From Cyclobacterium xiamenense (GTDB taxonomy: Bacteria; Bacteroidota; Bacteroidia; Cytophagales; Cyclobacteriaceae), in the NCBI RefSeq assembly GCF_009467825.1, contig NZ_WIOK01000016.1, positions 62,001 through 126,000 on the forward strand: 64,000 nt of DNA, given 5' to 3'. A program made the position numbers and the translations under genes. Positions 20,125 to 27,887 of this stretch are shown here, piece by piece. Under the pieces are notes generated by a model, which did no database searches, was not told the DNA's origin, and worked only from the letters and a program-made list of their open reading frames with translations. How positions within the stretch are numbered: position 1 is the first letter of the stretch; each line of letters starts with the position of its first letter.

Positions 20125-20604
20125 TCAGGTATCCGATTCGTTGGTTCCTTCCCGGTAGTACTGCCGCATGCCCTGAAGAAAATTACGCAGGATTTGGTCT
20201 TTGCAAAGCCGGTATTGCTTTTGTTCCGGTTTCCTGTAAAATGCACTCAACTCGTGTTTGCTGATGATCCGTCCGGCCAATTCCAGGATTTTCAGCTGTT
20301 CCTCGTCGGTCAGTTCCAGAGCGATCTTTAGCTTTCGCAGGATTTGGTTATTGGTCAGCCGGTTTTCGGGAAGTGGAACGGCTCCTTCTTTTGCACCTCG
20401 TTTGTAGGTAATCAACCCATTTAAAAAAGCGGCTAACTTAAAATCTCCCAGAGGATTAAAGGCTTCGTCGTCGTCTTTTTTCAACCAGTTACTGACTTCT
20501 GCACGCGTGGTTTCCAGGCCGCCAAGTCCAAAAATCCGAATCATCTGGTCATCGCCAAAATCAAAGGTATACCGCAGGCTTCGTAAAATATCGTTGTTTT
20601 GCAT
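20125..20604 (-). CDS. DUF1456 family protein (YehS-like)
   Basis: Cytoplasmic protein of unknown function. 159 residues with two repeats of the family's ~70-residue unit: MQNNDILRSLRYTFDFGDDQM ... VSNWLKKDDDEAF and then LTNNQILRKLKIALELTDEEQL ... LSAFYRKPEQKQYR, ending CKDQILRNFLQGMRQYYR. The N-N-D/Q-I-L-R opening and the L-S-x-x-x-R-K-P segment are diagnostic for E. coli YehS relatives. It stands alone. Confidence 0.93.
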   Translation of the reverse strand: MQNNDILRSLRYTFDFGDDQMIRIFGLGGLETTRAEVSNWLKKDDDEAFNPLGDFKLAAFLNGLITYKRGAKEGAVPLPENRLTNNQILRKLKIALELTDEEQLKILELAGRIISKHELSAFYRKPEQKQYRLCKDQILRNFLQGMRQYYREGTNESDT

Positions 20605-21140: not shown

Positions 21141-21944
21141 ATGCAGGCGCAACAACATACTCCCTACACGTTAATCACCGGTGCCAGTATGGGCATTGGA
21201 AAGGCTTTTGCAGGTGCCTGTGCCCGAAAAGGCCGAAATCTGCTGTTGGTTGCCTTCCCGGATGGTCAGTTGGAAGAGGTGCAACGGGAATTGCTGGCGG
21301 TATTTTCCGTATCCGTGTTGATTTTTCCCGTCGATTTAACGCAAGCAGACGCCGCCCAACGGTTGGTTCGGTTTTGTGAGGAAAAGAAACTAGCCATCGA
21401 TATACTTATCAACAATGCCGGCATGGGAGCGGGAGGGTTGTTTGAAAACATTCCTTTGGAAAAATACCTGCAAATCATCGACCTGAACAACAAGGCCATG
21501 GTCTCCCTGTGTCACCGGTTCCTTCCACTTTTGCAAGCACAGGAGCGGGCCTATGTACTTAACATGAGCAGCATGGAGGCGACGTTACCTTTGCCCTACA
21601 AAGCGGTTTATACTGGTTCCAAGAATTTTGTCTACGCATTTTCGCTAGCCTTGCGGGAGGAACAGCAACCGGGACCGGTTTCGGTCACGGTTGTTTGCCC
21701 CGGACCGGTCCTAACCAATCCGGAAGCCCTAATGCGGGCAAATGCCCATGGAAAACGGGCCAGGTGGGTCATGTGCAGCCCGGAAGAAGTAGCGGATTTG
21801 GCACTCAAAGGATTGTTTCGCGGAAAAGCCGTGGTGGTTCCCGGCAGGGTCAACCAGGCACTGGTCCGGCTGATGAAGCTGGTGCCAACCTCCCTCAAGA
21901 TGCGGCTATTGGAGCGCCTGTTTCGGGTGTACCGCAATCATTAA
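21141..21944 (+). CDS. Short-chain dehydrogenase/reductase (SDR), DltE/YqjQ-like
   Basis: NAD(P)-dependent oxidoreductase, substrate unknown. 267 residues from the ATG at 21141. Rossmann motif TLITGASMGIGKAFAGAC (T-G-x-x-x-G-I-G), LAIDILINNAGMGAGG (N-N-A-G), catalytic Ser in YVLNMSSMEA and Y-x-x-x-K in AVYTGSKNFVYAFS. The proline-rich VTVVCPGPVLTN follows as usual. The C-terminus has a hydrophobic/basic stretch (PTSLKMRLLERLFRV), as in 'DltE-like' SDRs that associate with the membrane. Its stop is directly followed by the stop of the converging SDR gene, with no base between. Confidence 0.93.
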   Translation: MQAQQHTPYTLITGASMGIGKAFAGACARKGRNLLLVAFPDGQLEEVQRELLAVFSVSVLIFPVDLTQADAAQRLVRFCEEKKLAIDILINNAGMGAGGLFENIPLEKYLQIIDLNNKAMVSLCHRFLPLLQAQERAYVLNMSSMEATLPLPYKAVYTGSKNFVYAFSLALREEQQPGPVSVTVVCPGPVLTNPEALMRANAHGKRARWVMCSPEEVADLALKGLFRGKAVVVPGRVNQALVRLMKLVPTSLKMRLLERLFRVYRNH

Positions 21945-22796
21945 TTAAAAGTAGGAGGTGATGCCACACATTTCTTCGCTTAGTTCCCACAATCGGGATG
22001 CGTCCTGGGGGGATAGCGCTTTTTTACTCGGATTTTTTTGCCGGCAATTGTCCCAGTAGGCGCCGGAAATTCCCTTCACTTCAGGGGACTGCGCCAGGTA
22101 AATCGATGTTTCGGCCCCTTTCTCGGGTGATTTACCCGTAAGGCGCCGAATTTTCCAGGCAAAGCCGTGCCAGCTAAGGGTGTGTTTGAGCCCGATATCC
22201 GTTTTGACCAAACCCGGCTGCACTGCATAGCTGGAAAGCTTTGGATGGGTTTTTCTTCGGTCAAATTCCCGGGTAAACAATACATTGGCCAGCTTGGATT
22301 GAGCGTAGGCACGTAGCCCGTGGTAGTTTTGGCGGAGGTTTACGTCGTCAAAATGTAGTTTTCCATGAAAATGCGAATCCGAACTAACGGTAATTATCCG
22401 GGGATCGTCCGATTGTAGCAGCAGGGGTAGCAAGCAATGCGTCAGTAAAAAGGGAGCCAGGTGGTTGATTGCCCATTGCCGCTCAAAACCGTCCGGAGTC
22501 CGGGAAAAATTCGAAAACCAGGCCCCGGCGTTGTTGATCAACACATCCAATTTGGTGTATTTTTTTTTCAAGCGGGCCGCCATATTGCGAATCTCCTGCT
22601 GGGAGCTCAAATCGGCCAGGGCATAGTCCAGGTCTGCATGGGGAAACTCCCTGCGAATGGCGTCCAATGTTTCCCTGGCTTTTTCCTCGCTGCGGCAGGA
22701 GACAACGACCCGTGCACCCATTTCTCCAAGCGCTTTGGCTGTGGCCAATCCAATTCCCGTATTGGCGCCTGTTACCAGGCAGATTTTATTTTTCAC
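21945..22796 (-). CDS. SDR-family oxidoreductase, retinol-dehydrogenase-like
   Basis: NAD(P)-dependent oxidoreductase; the substrate is unknown. 283 residues from a GTG at 22796. Motifs: CLVTGANTGIGLATAKALGE (cofactor), VVVSCRSEEKA (basic residues that favour NADPH), LDVLINNAGAW, catalytic Ser in IITVSSDSHFHGK and Tyr-x-x-x-Lys in AYAQSKLANVLFT. The order DDVNL ... YAQSKLAN is typical of the retinol dehydrogenase/WW-oxidoreductase group. The start overlaps the end of the small exported protein gene upstream (22786) by 11 bases, so they are probably co-transcribed. Confidence 0.93.
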   Translation of the reverse strand: MKNKICLVTGANTGIGLATAKALGEMGARVVVSCRSEEKARETLDAIRREFPHADLDYALADLSSQQEIRNMAARLKKKYTKLDVLINNAGAWFSNFSRTPDGFERQWAINHLAPFLLTHCLLPLLLQSDDPRIITVSSDSHFHGKLHFDDVNLRQNYHGLRAYAQSKLANVLFTREFDRRKTHPKLSSYAVQPGLVKTDIGLKHTLSWHGFAWKIRRLTGKSPEKGAETSIYLAQSPEVKGISGAYWDNCRQKNPSKKALSPQDASRLWELSEEMCGITSYF

Positions 22797-23184
22797 GCGT
22801 TGGTTTCAGTTTCTTCTTTTCTTCCAGAATGTGCGGGTACAGATCGTAAGTGGGATAAAATTCGGTGGAAAAGGCACCCCATACACTTTTTTCCACGGAG
22901 ATATTCAGGTTTCGCAATTCGCTGGCGGGTATTTTGACGGTAACCACCTGTCCGATACCCATCATCACATACCAATTCACCACTTTGGCAGAAGGGGGAG
23001 GAAAGTTTTCCAGAAAGCCATTGTTGTTTCGAATTTCCCGTAATTCCTCGATGTTTTTGTCCTGGTGGTGTTTCATAAAGATGGTGACCATCAGGCTGTC
23101 GGATGCCGTTTCGGTTTCGGCTTGTTGCCCGATTGACAGGTGGGCGACACCCAGAAAAGTAAGGAGTAAAATTGCTGTTTTCAT
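22786..23184 (-). CDS. Small exported protein of unknown function
   Basis: 132-residue secreted protein, starting at the ATG at 23184 (MKTAILLLTFLGVAHLSIGQ gives the signal peptide); an upstream start at 23214 is possible. The mature part has SLMVTIFMKHHQDKNIEELR and VVNWYVMMGIGQVVTVKIPA then LRNLNISVEKSVWGAFSTEF, which has the strand-helix-strand pattern of a small ferredoxin-like (dimeric alpha-beta barrel) domain, as in GYD or DUF3303-type proteins. I cannot assign a function. It overlaps the following SDR gene by 11 bases. Confidence 0.8.
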   Translation of the reverse strand: MKTAILLLTFLGVAHLSIGQQAETETASDSLMVTIFMKHHQDKNIEELREIRNNNGFLENFPPPSAKVVNWYVMMGIGQVVTVKIPASELRNLNISVEKSVWGAFSTEFYPTYDLYPHILEEKKKLKPTREK

Positions 23185-23780
23185 GATTCGGTTTCCGTTT
23201 TGGTGGTTTTTCATTTCGGTTTGCCATAAAAAAGCGTTTTGCCGATCGCCAGCAAGAACCTCTTTCTATCGGAAAATATCACGTACAAAAACTGTTTTGG
23301 TTCGTTAAAACCGAAGCGTTCGCAACGGTTTATCTACCAATAGAAATACATCCGGACAGTAATACCCAACCGACAGTACTTAAAGTTAGTATTTTTTTTC
23401 GGATGCCCGACAGGGGTAATCCAAAGCAGGGAATATTTCGTCGAAAGAAAACAGCAGCGCCAAATGGAAGGGTTTTTGGTCGGACTGGTTTTTGGCGTTC
23501 TTGCGTTTTCAATCGATTATCCACCGGTTGATTGTTCTCAATTCATTGTATCTGGATCCAAATCGTTATTTTTGCTTCACTTTCGCTCAGAGCAGCTATT
23601 GACCTGGTATCGGCAGCATCCAAAAATGACTGCCTCAGATCAGGTGTAATGGAAATGAACGTGAGTATTTCCAGGAAAACGAACATCAAACAAACCAACG
23701 AAATCCTGCGTGTCGAATGCTCCCTTACGTTTGATTTTTGTATGCGCTGGTTTGATTTGTACTAAAAAATTGCTTGATCC
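23185..23780. other. Intergenic region without a recognised gene
   Basis: About 600 bases between divergent genes. Short open frames (for example 23464-23649 and 23532-23765) have no family features, no signal peptide and no plausible start context. I see no RNA gene or repeat. Confidence 0.4.
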
Positions 23781-24329
23781 ATGGGTAAAGAAACATTTAA
23801 ATACATAGCGAATTATTGCGAGGAAAATATCTGGCAGCTGTGCAGACATCCGGTGTTGGCAGAAACGGACAAGCGGGTAGTGATCGTTTCCAACCAAGCC
23901 GGAAACTGCTCCTTTTGGCAGCAGCAATCCATGCCTGACTCTGGTCCTGTTTGCTGGGATTACCACGTGGTGCTTTTGGCTTTTGTCAGCGGGGAATGGT
24001 GTGTCTATGATTTTGATTCCAAGCTCGAATTCCCGGTGGGTCTGGCGAGCTACCTGGAATGCACCTTCAGACCAACGCAAACCACAGCGGCGAATGCCCC
24101 ATTTTTCAAAGTGTTTCCGGGAGATGAATTTACCCGGACTTTTTCTTCCGACAGAAGCCATATGAAAGATGCCGTGGGAAACTGGATTTTTCAGCCCCCC
24201 GCATGGGATGCGATTGAAAGCGATCAGTCCCCAGGCTTGCACCTGAACGAAATTCGCGATTTCAGCCCAAAGAGTCCCCATCGGGTACTCAGTTTAGACG
24301 AATTAAAAGCCGCATTTGTGCAGGCTTAA
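23781..24329 (+). CDS. Protein N-terminal glutamine amidohydrolase (NTAQ1/WDYHV1-like)
   Basis: Predicted to deamidate N-terminal glutamine of proteins to glutamate, the job of eukaryotic NTAQ1 in the Arg/N-degron pathway. 182 residues, close to the ~205 of the human enzyme. The match is strong along the whole length: YCEENIWQLC (catalytic Cys13), VVIVSNQAGNCSFWQQQS, GPVCWDYHVVLLAF (catalytic His62 in the eponymous W-D-Y-H-V), CVYDFDSKLEFP (catalytic Asp77), FSSDRSHMKDAVGNW (diagnostic S-D-R-S-H-M-K-D), then the acidic-proline C-terminus HRVLSLDELKAAF. All three catalytic residues known for human NTAQ1 (Cys28, His81, Asp97) are kept. No signal peptide, so cytoplasmic. It overlaps the end of the converging deacetylase gene by 4 bases. 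Which bacterial proteins it acts on is unknown. Confidence 0.93.
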   Translation: MGKETFKYIANYCEENIWQLCRHPVLAETDKRVVIVSNQAGNCSFWQQQSMPDSGPVCWDYHVVLLAFVSGEWCVYDFDSKLEFPVGLASYLECTFRPTQTTAANAPFFKVFPGDEFTRTFSSDRSHMKDAVGNWIFQPPAWDAIESDQSPGLHLNEIRDFSPKSPHRVLSLDELKAAFVQA

Positions 24330-25198
24330 TTTCGCAAGGGCCGGCTCAAGTCGGGTTTCAGTAGCCTGTCTGCCTCCCCAAAATCTATGTAGGAACCCAA
24401 ATCCTGGAGGGACAAGACATGGTATCCTTCCTGGCTTAGGTAATCCAGGTACTTCCTAAAAAGCGCTGGTGACGTACTCACCCAGGGATGTTCCAGGTCA
24501 GGCACCCCATGGATGGTCAGAATAACCACTTTCCCATCCCTGGCTTTTTCCAGCGCATCGAAAATCTCTTGTTCGTTTGTATCGTCCGTTGCCCAGCTGG
24601 GTAGGAGGTACGGGTGATCGGAAAGGGGGTCGTAGACGCGGCCACCTCCGGCTCGCGCAATTCGATACTGTTTTTCCTGCAGGACCTCCAATACCGACTC
24701 GCTCATGCTGTAACCCGGATAGGCAAAACTACTGGGTTGTTGGATCCCGAGGGAATCCGCTTTTCGTTCGATATAATCGATTTCTTCCCGTATTTCCGCT
24801 TTCGAAAGCTTTCCGACCGGGGCGTGACTATGGGTGTGGTTGGCTACTTCAAAGCCCATCCGATCCAATTCCTGCATTTGGCGCCAGTTCATGTACTTGC
24901 TGCTATCCGCGTGATTGGGCGGAAATTCGCAGACGAAAAAGGTAGCGCCAAAGCCTTTTTCCTTCAATAAAGGAGCCACTTCGGAATAGTGGCTGGCCGG
25001 GGCATCGTCGAATGTCAGCACCACGATCTTGTCCGGTAGCGGTTTTCGAAGTACCTGGGAAGACAGTTCTCCATACGCGAGCATCAGGCAGGCCGCCAGG
25101 AAAAACCGACGAACCAAGCCGGTGCTACTGCCGTCTGCCTGTTGACCGATCCTACCCGTCGCCTCGTTTGGGCTGACGTTTGCACGGTTACCGTGCAT
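24326..25198 (-). CDS. Exported polysaccharide deacetylase (NodB family)
   Basis: Predicted to remove acetyl groups from a polysaccharide such as peptidoglycan, chitin or xylan. 290 residues; starts at 25198, overlapping the preceding gene's stop (25188) by 11 bases, and a signal-anchor (RRFFLAACLMLAYG) is near residue 40. NodB domain: KIVVLTFDDAPASHYSEVAP (T-F-D-D, catalytic base and metal Asp), FEVANHTHSHAPVGK (H-x-x-x-H metal motif), SFAYPGYSMSESVL (motif 3), and VVILTIHGVPDLEHP (motif 5 with His). All catalytic motifs are present. It sits last in an operon with the 899-residue dehydrogenase/cytochrome c lipoprotein. Confidence 0.92.
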   Translation of the reverse strand: MHGNRANVSPNEATGRIGQQADGSSTGLVRRFFLAACLMLAYGELSSQVLRKPLPDKIVVLTFDDAPASHYSEVAPLLKEKGFGATFFVCEFPPNHADSSKYMNWRQMQELDRMGFEVANHTHSHAPVGKLSKAEIREEIDYIERKADSLGIQQPSSFAYPGYSMSESVLEVLQEKQYRIARAGGGRVYDPLSDHPYLLPSWATDDTNEQEIFDALEKARDGKVVILTIHGVPDLEHPWVSTSPALFRKYLDYLSQEGYHVLSLQDLGSYIDFGEADRLLKPDLSRPLRN

Positions 25199-27887
25199 AG
25201 AGCTTCACGTTTTTCATGGCCCAAACCTGATTGCGGGGCTCTTTTACCAGCAAGCGTAGCTGGTTGACGGGCCTTGACTCTTCCCACCGAAGGCTGTTGC
25301 TACCTGCTTCTCCGGTACCCCGAGCCACTTCGGTCCAATCCGTTCCGTTCGTCGAGACTTCCACCGAATAGCTGCCTGGATACTGTTCCTTCCCCGCATC
25401 AAACTGGATCTCTGTCAGTTTTTGCGGTTGGGGTAGTACCAGTTGAAACCACATGCCTTCCTTTTGCTCCTCTTCGGTTTTCCAGCCCTTGAAGCCAAAG
25501 GCATAGCTGGGATCACGGGTGGAACCCACACCCTGCAAGGCCGTACTGCTTGCAGAAACCTCCCAGTTGTCCTTAGGAAACAGTTGCTTGGGTATTTCCG
25601 CCACCAGGGCATCGTAGGAGTAATTGCCATCCCGATCCCCGGTAGCTGCCCGAATTTGCGCGACGTATTCCGGGCTAACAAAGCTGGCCTGGTTTCCAAA
25701 GTCGTTGCGTATGTAGGACAGTACCGAGGCAATCCACTCGTCGGTATTTTCTCCCATGGCAATCATCACGCCTTCGTATTCTTTGCCCTCAATGGCTCCG
25801 GTAAGGCCATGAAGCAGTGTCTTAACGGCGTATTCCGGGTGTCCCTGTACGCGTGGAGATCCGGAAAAGCCAGGAGCAATCAATTCGCCTCCGTCTGCTC
25901 CGGTGGGCGTTCCCAGGCCTTTTACCCCGTGGCAGGTGGCGCAGTAGCTATCAAAAATGGATTTTCCCTGATCAAAAAGGGCTCCTTCCACTGCCGTGTA
26001 TTTGGTGGCGGCCCGTTCCCGTTCTTCTGCCCGCCTTTCCAGTACCTGTTGGGCTACGGTTTGGATACCTTTCGCCGGGTTGGTATTCACCGCGTTTTGC
26101 ATCAACTCTTCTACTCCTTCAAGATCCAGAATATGGGCACTTAGCAGCGCCTGTACGGCCACCTGAGGATCCGGATCGGAAATGCCTTTCTTGTAATCCG
26201 CCTCCAAACTTTTATCGCCGTACTTGTACAGGGTTTCTCCGGCGCGCATGCCATGAATCCGGAATGTGGGATTCGAATCGGCCATCCAAGCGCGTACGAG
26301 GCCGGCTTTTAGTGCGCCCAGGCCTTCCAGGGTCCAGAAGGCATGCAGGCGCGCCAACTCGCTTTCGTGGTTTTGGGCCATTTCGGCTAATTTCGGAACG
26401 ACCGAACGATCCTGACGCAAAATCAACAATTGCTGGGCTTTATCGCGCCACCAGCCATTGGGATGGGACAGGTGCTGCAAGAGCTCTTCGGTAGATTCTT
26501 CAAACATGCGGGGTTTTTCCGTACTGCGGGGGTGCTCCTCGTGGCTCAGTCGCCAAATACGGCCATTTCCGACGACATCGTCCATTTGGTATTGTTGGAT
26601 TTTTGTTCGCAGGTAACTGCCTTTCTGGGTCCAGTTGCCTTCCTGGATGATGCCCCGGTACATGTCCACGATGTATAGCGTTCCGTCCGGGGCGGTAGCC
26701 ATGTCGACGGGGCGAAACAGCGGATCGGTGGATTGGATGAATTCGGTTTCTTGATCCCGGTACGCATTTTGAATATACGTCAACCCTTCGGTCTTATCGG
26801 AACGCACCTGACGGACGATTCTTCCCACCGGTTCTCCGTAGAAATACTGGTTAACCAGTTCTTTGGGAAGCCGGTCACCCCGAAATACGTCATTTCCGGC
26901 TGCTCCGGTAACGTTATTCAAGGAACCATCCGGTTTGGTTTCCCGCATCCCGGGTTCAAAGTCGGCCAATTTTACCAGGCTGAAGGGTTCGCGAAATCCG
27001 TCTTGAAACTGTCCGGGAATCCTGAAATTCCCATATACGATTGGAAAATTGAAATTTTGGGGGACACCACCTGCGCCGTCCTGAAACCAAACCTGTCCGT
27101 AATTATCCTGGGTCACTCCCCATTGCCCGTAGGGATTTCCGGTGGGTTCCTGAATGACGCCCTCCGGCGTCCATCGGATACGGCGGGAATTGTAGGTACT
27201 GTACATCCAGTTATCCATGGTCCAGGTCAAAAAGCTGGTTTGGTGTTCTACGTTGCCGGAGCGCCCCAGCCCGGTTGCAAAAAGCTCTTTTTTGTCGGCC
27301 TTCCCGTCTCCATTGGTATCGGTAAACTTGTACACGTGATCCTCGTTGGATTCCATGGACAGGATGGTATTTGGTCCGAAGGGAACCACAAACCGGGGAA
27401 ATACCAGGCTATCCAGAAACACGACACCTGTTTCATAAATGCCATCGTCATCGGTATCCTCCCAACGGGAAATACGGCCTGCCGGCATCAATTCTCCGGT
27501 AGCGTCAATATCCTGCATGTAGGTTCGAAGCTCCAACACATACATTCTCCCGTTGCCATCAAATTGAATGGCGGCAGGTTCCTGAATGTGGGGTTCGGCA
27601 AGAATGGGATCCATTCGGTATCCCGGTTGCAGCCGAAAGGTCTTCTGTTCTTCCAATGCCGATAGGGGGATTACCGGCGCCGTTGGCGTCAGGTCGATGC
27701 CTTTCCATCGGGCTGATTCCATATCCACTCCATCTGGTATTTCAATTTGGGGATAGGGAGCTTCTTTTCGTTGGGGATCCAAATGCTCTTCCGGTGAACG
27801 GTCAAAAACCGGTTTTTGCACTTGTTGCTGCTGGCAGGCAGCTGCCAGAAAGAGTAAGGGTAAATAAACTAAATACGTTCGAATCAT
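25188..27887 (-). CDS. Dehydrogenase-like beta-propeller / HEAT / cytochrome c lipoprotein with C-terminal discoidin-like domain
   Basis: 899-residue lipoprotein (lipobox in LLFLAAACQQQ). About 75-440: sugar-dehydrogenase-like propeller with GRMYVLELRTYMQD, DTNGDGKADKKELF and DGTLYIVDMYRG. About 450-600: HEAT-like repeats (SDPDPQVAVQALLSAHI). About 635-740: class I cytochrome c with the heme motif CATCHG (Cys649-His653), and a Met-rich region (YEGVMIAMGENT) for the axial ligand. About 775-899: a coagulation-factor-5/8 (discoidin) type sugar-binding domain (SSTALQGVGSTRDPSYAFG, YSVEVSTNGTDWTEVARGTG). It resembles the 1167-residue protein at 8680 but has the added carbohydrate-binding domain. 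It precedes the deacetylase gene, with an overlap of 11 bases. Confidence 0.88.
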   Translation of the reverse strand: MIRTYLVYLPLLFLAAACQQQQVQKPVFDRSPEEHLDPQRKEAPYPQIEIPDGVDMESARWKGIDLTPTAPVIPLSALEEQKTFRLQPGYRMDPILAEPHIQEPAAIQFDGNGRMYVLELRTYMQDIDATGELMPAGRISRWEDTDDDGIYETGVVFLDSLVFPRFVVPFGPNTILSMESNEDHVYKFTDTNGDGKADKKELFATGLGRSGNVEHQTSFLTWTMDNWMYSTYNSRRIRWTPEGVIQEPTGNPYGQWGVTQDNYGQVWFQDGAGGVPQNFNFPIVYGNFRIPGQFQDGFREPFSLVKLADFEPGMRETKPDGSLNNVTGAAGNDVFRGDRLPKELVNQYFYGEPVGRIVRQVRSDKTEGLTYIQNAYRDQETEFIQSTDPLFRPVDMATAPDGTLYIVDMYRGIIQEGNWTQKGSYLRTKIQQYQMDDVVGNGRIWRLSHEEHPRSTEKPRMFEESTEELLQHLSHPNGWWRDKAQQLLILRQDRSVVPKLAEMAQNHESELARLHAFWTLEGLGALKAGLVRAWMADSNPTFRIHGMRAGETLYKYGDKSLEADYKKGISDPDPQVAVQALLSAHILDLEGVEELMQNAVNTNPAKGIQTVAQQVLERRAEERERAATKYTAVEGALFDQGKSIFDSYCATCHGVKGLGTPTGADGGELIAPGFSGSPRVQGHPEYAVKTLLHGLTGAIEGKEYEGVMIAMGENTDEWIASVLSYIRNDFGNQASFVSPEYVAQIRAATGDRDGNYSYDALVAEIPKQLFPKDNWEVSASSTALQGVGSTRDPSYAFGFKGWKTEEEQKEGMWFQLVLPQPQKLTEIQFDAGKEQYPGSYSVEVSTNGTDWTEVARGTGEAGSNSLRWEESRPVNQLRLLVKEPRNQVWAMKNVKLYAR

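Follow-up and report, generated by a model that had tools for sequence, protein, structure and literature searches.

In eukaryotes, NTAQ1 takes an early step of the Arg/N-degron path; animals and plants employ it to convert N-terminal Gln to Glu. The catalytic triad of the human enzyme is described as Cys28, His81 and Asp97, and the strand Val76-Ile77-Trp78-Asp79-Tyr80 as gripping the backbone and the amino group of a bound substrate-like peptide, where the contact of Ile77 is made through the backbone and Asp79 bonds to the bound N-terminus (PMC4214742). NTAN1 deamidates N-terminal Asn, and yeast Nta1 both N-terminal Asn and N-terminal Gln, with folds that differ from that of NTAQ1 (PMC7022378). 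Bacteria are described as being without ubiquitin-proteasome N-recognins (PMC6274719). N-terminal Asp and Glu are stabilizing in E. coli but secondary destabilizing in V. vulnificus, where Bpt adds Leu and thereby makes them destabilizing; the main text of the same account of the bacterial N-degron pathway presents no amidase tier, and the word "amidase" appears in it zero times (PMC3692480). A bacterial NTAQ1 was the subject of none of the papers among the matches listed in our literature search, which covered open-licence papers.

The 64,000-nucleotide stretch of Cyclobacterium xiamenense DNA analysed here, referred to as the window, contains an NTAQ1-family gene (Table 1). Its product resembles human NTAQ1 (C8orf32, PDB codes 4w79 and 3c9q) in the triad, the substrate strand, and the SDRSHMKD and PPxW-type blocks, with 38% identity over 163 aligned columns and a predicted fold that superimposes with TM 0.86 by query length. 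It differs in length, being shorter by about 20 residues, of which 15 fall ahead of the catalytic Cys, and in its genome the ATE family is unmatched. As for the bacterial N-degron pathway (Aat/Bpt, ClpS, ClpAP), ClpS is common to the window genome, whereas Aat and Bpt were not found there. Protein glutaminase acts on Gln within proteins. The Flavobacterium enzyme (PDB code 8z3i) is also a Gln side-chain deamidase, and has the same broad fold, but is a weak structural match only.

Family assignment, active site and predicted fold

The preliminary description of this DNA had called the protein a homologue of NTAQ1, and profile, active site, fold and tree all agree with that call. The PF09764 (Nt_Gln_amidase) profile is matched at 144 bits (E 5e-42), against a curated cut-off of 27, and the human chains 3c9q and 4w79 match the protein at E about 1e-30, far beyond chance; a search of NCBIfam at E up to 0.01 returned zero families. 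The gene is present in a single copy in the 5.78-Mb genome (97 contigs, 99.99% complete). A 213-residue antisense ORF opposite to it (23640-24281, minus strand) is taken for spurious.

The three sequence blocks noted previously, CEENIW (residues 13-18), WDYHVVLL (residues 59-66) and SDRSHMKD (residues 123-130), are all in place, as are the catalytic residues Cys13, His62 and Asp77, which align with human Cys28, His81 and Asp97. Their spacing, which had been described as that of the human enzyme, is near to it but not equal, with 49 versus 53 residues from Cys to His, and 15 versus 16 from His to Asp. The substrate strand preceding the catalytic His reads V-C-W-D-Y in the window protein and V-I-W-D-Y in human NTAQ1, so that the sole change is Ile77 to Cys, and human Tyr111, which is bonded to Asp97, aligns with Tyr91. 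Across the 68 bacterial rows of the alignment, the triad His and Asp are invariant, and the Cys is found in all 67 rows that reach its position, the remaining row (L066) being without its N-terminus at a contig end. Trp78 and Tyr80 of the substrate strand (human numbering) occur in 68 of 68 rows, as do the Arg, His and Met of the SDRSHMKD block, whose first Ser is present in 66. Asp79 is replaced by Asn (WDYHV to WNYHV) in 9 of the 28 Cyclobacteriaceae rows, all from a single genus, so that some members of the family may differ in specificity; the window protein keeps the Asp. Tyr111 is replaced by Trp in 18 of 40 rows from a second bacterial phylum.

One structure model, built from ten natural sequences, was obtained for the window protein (pLDDT 88.6, pTM 0.87). 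In a Foldseek comparison with the PDB, the top 17 matches are all human NTAQ1 entries (E 6.7e-17 to 2e-15; TM 0.83-0.86 by query length). Protein glutaminase was considered as the closest fold and rejected, as it takes rank 18 behind the 17 NTAQ1 chains (E 1.8e-3, TM 0.39).

Table 1. Positions of the features discussed. Plain numbers refer to the window; numbers after an L label refer to the locus of that label.
Feature	Position	Strand	Basis or remark
Short-chain dehydrogenase gene 1	21141-21944	+	Kept in Cyclobacterium with or without NTAQ1
Short-chain dehydrogenase gene 2	21945-22796	-	Kept in Cyclobacterium with or without NTAQ1
Small gene without Pfam family, upstream side of NTAQ1 site	22786..23214	-	Pfam, locus comparison
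NTAQ1-family N-terminal glutamine amidohydrolase gene, 182 aa	23781 (ATG)..24329 (stop included)	+	ORF list, Pfam, human NTAQ1 match, predicted fold
Cys13 codon, nucleophile (human Cys28), within NYCEENIW	23817..23819	+	Alignment; triad PMC4214742
Val57-Cys58-Trp59-Asp60-Tyr61, equivalent of human strand 76-80	23949..23963	+	Alignment; role PMC4214742
His62 codon (human His81)	23964..23966	+	Alignment
Asp77 codon (human Asp97)	24009..24011	+	Alignment
SDRSHMKD block, residues 123-130	24147..24170	+	Alignment
Polysaccharide deacetylase gene, convergent, 4-base overlap with NTAQ1 gene	24326..25198	-	Pfam, locus comparison
WNYHV rows	L052, L053, L054, L057, L058, L059, L062, L064, L066		Residues before catalytic His
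GNAT-type gene near NTAQ1	L103:6597-7547		
GNAT-type gene near NTAQ1	L112:4946-5896		
GNAT-type gene near NTAQ1	L093:755-1771		
GNAT-type gene near NTAQ1	L105:3824-4792		
GNAT-type gene near NTAQ1	L110:1412-2392		
GNAT-type gene near NTAQ1	L113:4947-5903		

Distribution and gene history

PF09764 is patchy in its distribution. In the phylum sample 2 of 247 genomes carry it, the window's own and one other from the same family. Within Cyclobacteriaceae it is again patchy, with matches in 30 of 390 genomes at E up to 1e-3 and 28 over the cut-off; the two below it (G282 and G353) were excluded from the co-occurrence sets. In the second phylum, that of a metagenome genome labelled uncultured proteobacterium (locus L011), 42 of 329 sampled genomes carry it, and fourteen control genomes gave zero matches. 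Among ten loci in named genomes, the close relatives are from Cyclobacterium (C. salsum, C. jeungdonense and C. roseum) and the next from Litoribacter, Rhodonellum, Anditalea and Aquiflexum, while metagenomes contribute a Flammeovirgaceae genome, a fragment in an Algoriphagus genome, and L011. A mobile-element origin was rejected, with no relative among the plasmids, phages and viral contigs searched: tblastn at E up to 1e-3 found none in 72,556 plasmid and 50,697 phage records, and a pattern search of viral contigs, which reaches close relatives only, gave two candidate stretches, none confirmed.

The gene is absent by profile from 5 of 12 Cyclobacterium genomes, and is therefore dispensable. 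Where present in the genus, it occupies two sites in one locus. The A site, flanked by the small gene and the deacetylase, carries it in C. salsum and C. jeungdonense as well as in the window. C. roseum and three further Cyclobacterium genomes have it at the B site, which is bounded by the second dehydrogenase and the small gene. C. roseum has an intact B copy together with a decayed A-site piece of 77 codons (L005:7163-7393), which is 78% identical to the A copy of C. salsum and 48% identical to its own B copy. Because this second, decayed NTAQ1 is closer to the C. salsum copy than to its own, an old duplication followed by loss is indicated, and the simplest account is that an ancestor had both copies and that species later lost one or both.

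In the stretches fetched from the five NTAQ1-free Cyclobacterium genomes, the small gene is present together with the dehydrogenases and the deacetylase, the last of these being found in the genus with or without NTAQ1, and no believable NTAQ1 remnant was detected there (tblastn best E 0.59). The gene order of the window recurs in a single one of the five (L142). The remaining four have the deacetylase at a different point of the cluster, beside the DUF1456 gene, and the A site is thus absent as such. A DUF1456 protein is also encoded in the window (20125-20604, minus strand; two matched stretches), with a homologue in 9 of 10 Cyclobacterium clusters compared, and an 899-residue DUF7133 protein, which also has cytochrome c and F5/8 type C domain matches, is encoded at 25188-27887 on the minus strand. 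The neighbours of NTAQ1 are conserved inside the genus and mostly different between genera.

NTAQ1 changes faster than its surroundings, with 58% identity between the window and C. salsum proteins against 74-84% for seven neighbour proteins. The relatives are under purifying selection, as nine of ten pairs give dN/dS values of 0.05-0.32 (Nei-Gojobori counts), the tenth pair (window/L003) lying outside this range with a saturated dS.

The tree comprises 69 rows, namely 28 Cyclobacteriaceae sequences, 40 of the 42 second-phylum ones (G870 and G894 were left out), and residues 22-185 of human NTAQ1 as the one eukaryotic sequence. In this tree, in which the bootstrap was unsettled, one row is long and ten are of unusual composition, the Cyclobacteriaceae proteins form a single clade (100/97), to which two second-phylum rows are nearest, by a join with lower support (96/74). 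We regard it as unlikely that the Cyclobacteriaceae gene was acquired by transfer from a eukaryote. Its patchy occurrence in the phylum and the family, the single clade, and an AU test in which the grouping of human with Cyclobacteriaceae is unrejected (p 0.28) would all be in keeping with such an event. However, since the second phylum also has the family, bacteria could be the source just as well, whichever the direction, and the GC3 of the NTAQ1 gene is 0.54 against 0.53-0.62 in eight neighbour genes. A foreign base composition was thereby rejected, and with a composition like that of its neighbours the gene bears no mark of recent arrival. Given the 96/74 join, the AU result and the single eukaryotic sequence, no direction of transfer is claimed.

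N-degron partners in two phyla

It had been proposed that conversion of N-terminal Gln to Glu feeds a Bpt step, and a search of the genome for bpt, aat and clpS had been suggested. In the window genome, ClpS (PF02617) is present (G000:C26:56957-57151, E 3.8e-17), and there is no match to either Bpt/ATE (ATE_C, PF04377) or Aat (PF03588), although with 97 contigs a gap is possible. Since ClpS is there and neither transferase was matched, the Bpt step is unsupported for this bacterium, and PF04377 is likewise absent from its 27 NTAQ1-bearing relatives. The search covered 70 Cyclobacteriaceae genomes, 28 with and 42 without NTAQ1, using profiles that a very divergent transferase could escape; positive controls were matched for both PF04377 (Caulobacter) and PF03588 (E. 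coli and three others). Neither transferase is found in any of the 28 NTAQ1-bearing genomes, whereas PF04377 occurs in 4 and PF03588 in 1 of the 42 NTAQ1-free genomes, so that all four PF04377 positives among the 70 are without NTAQ1. Mutual avoidance of NTAQ1 and Bpt is not shown by these counts (Fisher p 0.14). As both transferases are rare with or without NTAQ1, their absence is the background of the family and no sign of a special arrangement. ClpS is present in 28 of 28 NTAQ1-bearing and 40 of 42 NTAQ1-free genomes. The NTAQ1-free genomes used for comparison (42 from the family and 38 from the second phylum) are a non-random choice, and none of the counts includes a correction for kinship.

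In the second phylum, ClpS is found in 41 of 42 genomes with NTAQ1 versus 31 of 38 without (Fisher p 0.024), Aat in 40 versus 31 (p 0.078), and PF04377 in 15 versus 6 (p 0.074), all values being uncorrected for kinship and for the three tests. Of the NTAQ1-free genomes, seven lack ClpS, and the same seven lack Aat. In this sample NTAQ1 thus tends to sit in genomes that have the N-degron path, yet 27 of 42 are without Bpt. Because the other 15 carry PF04377, the Bpt-step idea may hold in the second phylum.

An operon or functional neighbour of NTAQ1 was rejected, given the mostly varying neighbours between genera, and the sole second-phylum lead is a PF13480 gene. Neither bpt nor clpS was detected near NTAQ1 in 68 loci (tblastn with few reference proteins, E up to 1e-4; window flanks excluded). 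One locus among the 68 (L011:2303-2836, repeated as L088) has aat in the vicinity of NTAQ1, at a distance of about 3 kb, and the same metagenome genome also carries an ATE_C gene. In 6 of 40 second-phylum loci, NTAQ1 has a GNAT-type gene no more than about 1.3 kb away, and in three of the six this gene is at most 100 bases from the matched stretch; PF13480 was tested in three of the six. Five of the six share further neighbours, the sixth (L093) being a 3.8-kb contig, and the linkage is for that reason perhaps one of kinship. The GNAT-type gene is possibly a transferase, or possibly a case of mere shared synteny.

Proposed function and alternative explanations

Homology to the human enzyme makes activity on N-terminal Gln likely. 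We infer a cytosolic location, as no hydrophobic N-terminus is apparent by eye. A soluble cysteine amidohydrolase of this kind would most likely hold a peptide or protein by its free N-terminus along the V-C-W-D-Y strand, and Cys13, activated by His62 and Asp77, would attack the side-chain amide of the N-terminal Gln, whereby ammonia would be released and N-terminal Glu left. N-terminal Gln can close to pyroglutamate, which ordinary aminopeptidases are not known to remove. Most simply, the enzyme would edit peptides from proteolysis and so prevent this closure. Such a peptide-recycling role is a proposal for Cyclobacteriaceae. Against it, the co-occurrence with ClpS and Aat in the second phylum hints at a tie to the N-degron path rather than to peptide recycling, and the reading is also weakened by the Asp79 replacement in part of the family and by the dispensability of the gene in Cyclobacterium.

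No known downstream partner was found that would account for what the enzyme does in Cyclobacteriaceae. On balance we consider it probable that it is a true N-terminal Gln amidase that works in this family without the known aminoacyl-transferases, as a stand-alone N-terminal editing step, a reading favoured because no known transferase was found that would make N-terminal Glu a ClpS degron. A pathway in which deamidation is the tertiary step, with Bpt adding Leu to the resulting Glu and ClpS/ClpAP degrading the product, could draw on the ClpS of every NTAQ1-bearing Cyclobacteriaceae genome and on the PF04377 counts of the second phylum, but is highly improbable in view of the lack of any PF04377 match in those same Cyclobacteriaceae, its restriction in the family to NTAQ1-free genomes, the majority of NTAQ1-bearing second-phylum genomes that are also without it, and the 68 loci with no bpt or clpS close by. 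GNAT is the fold of Bpt and Aat too. An unrecognised transferase, e.g., a GNAT- or FemAB-like protein, could act on N-terminal Glu and hand the product to ClpS, which is present in 69 of 70 NTAQ1-bearing genomes of both groups; the GNAT-type neighbours in the second phylum would be candidates. We nonetheless think this improbable, since ClpS is nearly universal in NTAQ1-free Cyclobacteriaceae also, and the GNAT linkage may be explained by kinship.

It is also doubtful that the bacterial protein, with its catalytic core retained, now acts on a different amide, such as an internal Gln in a partner protein or a small molecule. The rank of protein glutaminase as the next fold match after NTAQ1, the Asp79 to Asn replacement in part of the family, and the low identity to C. 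salsum relative to the neighbour proteins all point in that direction, but the glutaminase match is weak, the substrate strand of the window protein is as in human NTAQ1 except for the Cys in place of Ile77, and Trp78 and Tyr80 are invariant.

A conserved bacterial NTAQ1 that occurs with ClpS and without a match to a known transferase separates deamidation from the steps on which its significance in eukaryotes depends. It is conceivable, albeit rather unlikely, that at least two phyla run an N-terminal Gln deamidation tier, which in Cyclobacteriaceae would lead through an unrecognised transferase to ClpS or would involve no transferase, and that the chemistry of NTAQ1 exists independently of arginylation and of the ubiquitin N-degron path, and is perhaps older than both. 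The enzyme is small and testable, and a genus whose members are with and without the gene permits the fate of proteins with N-terminal Gln to be compared.
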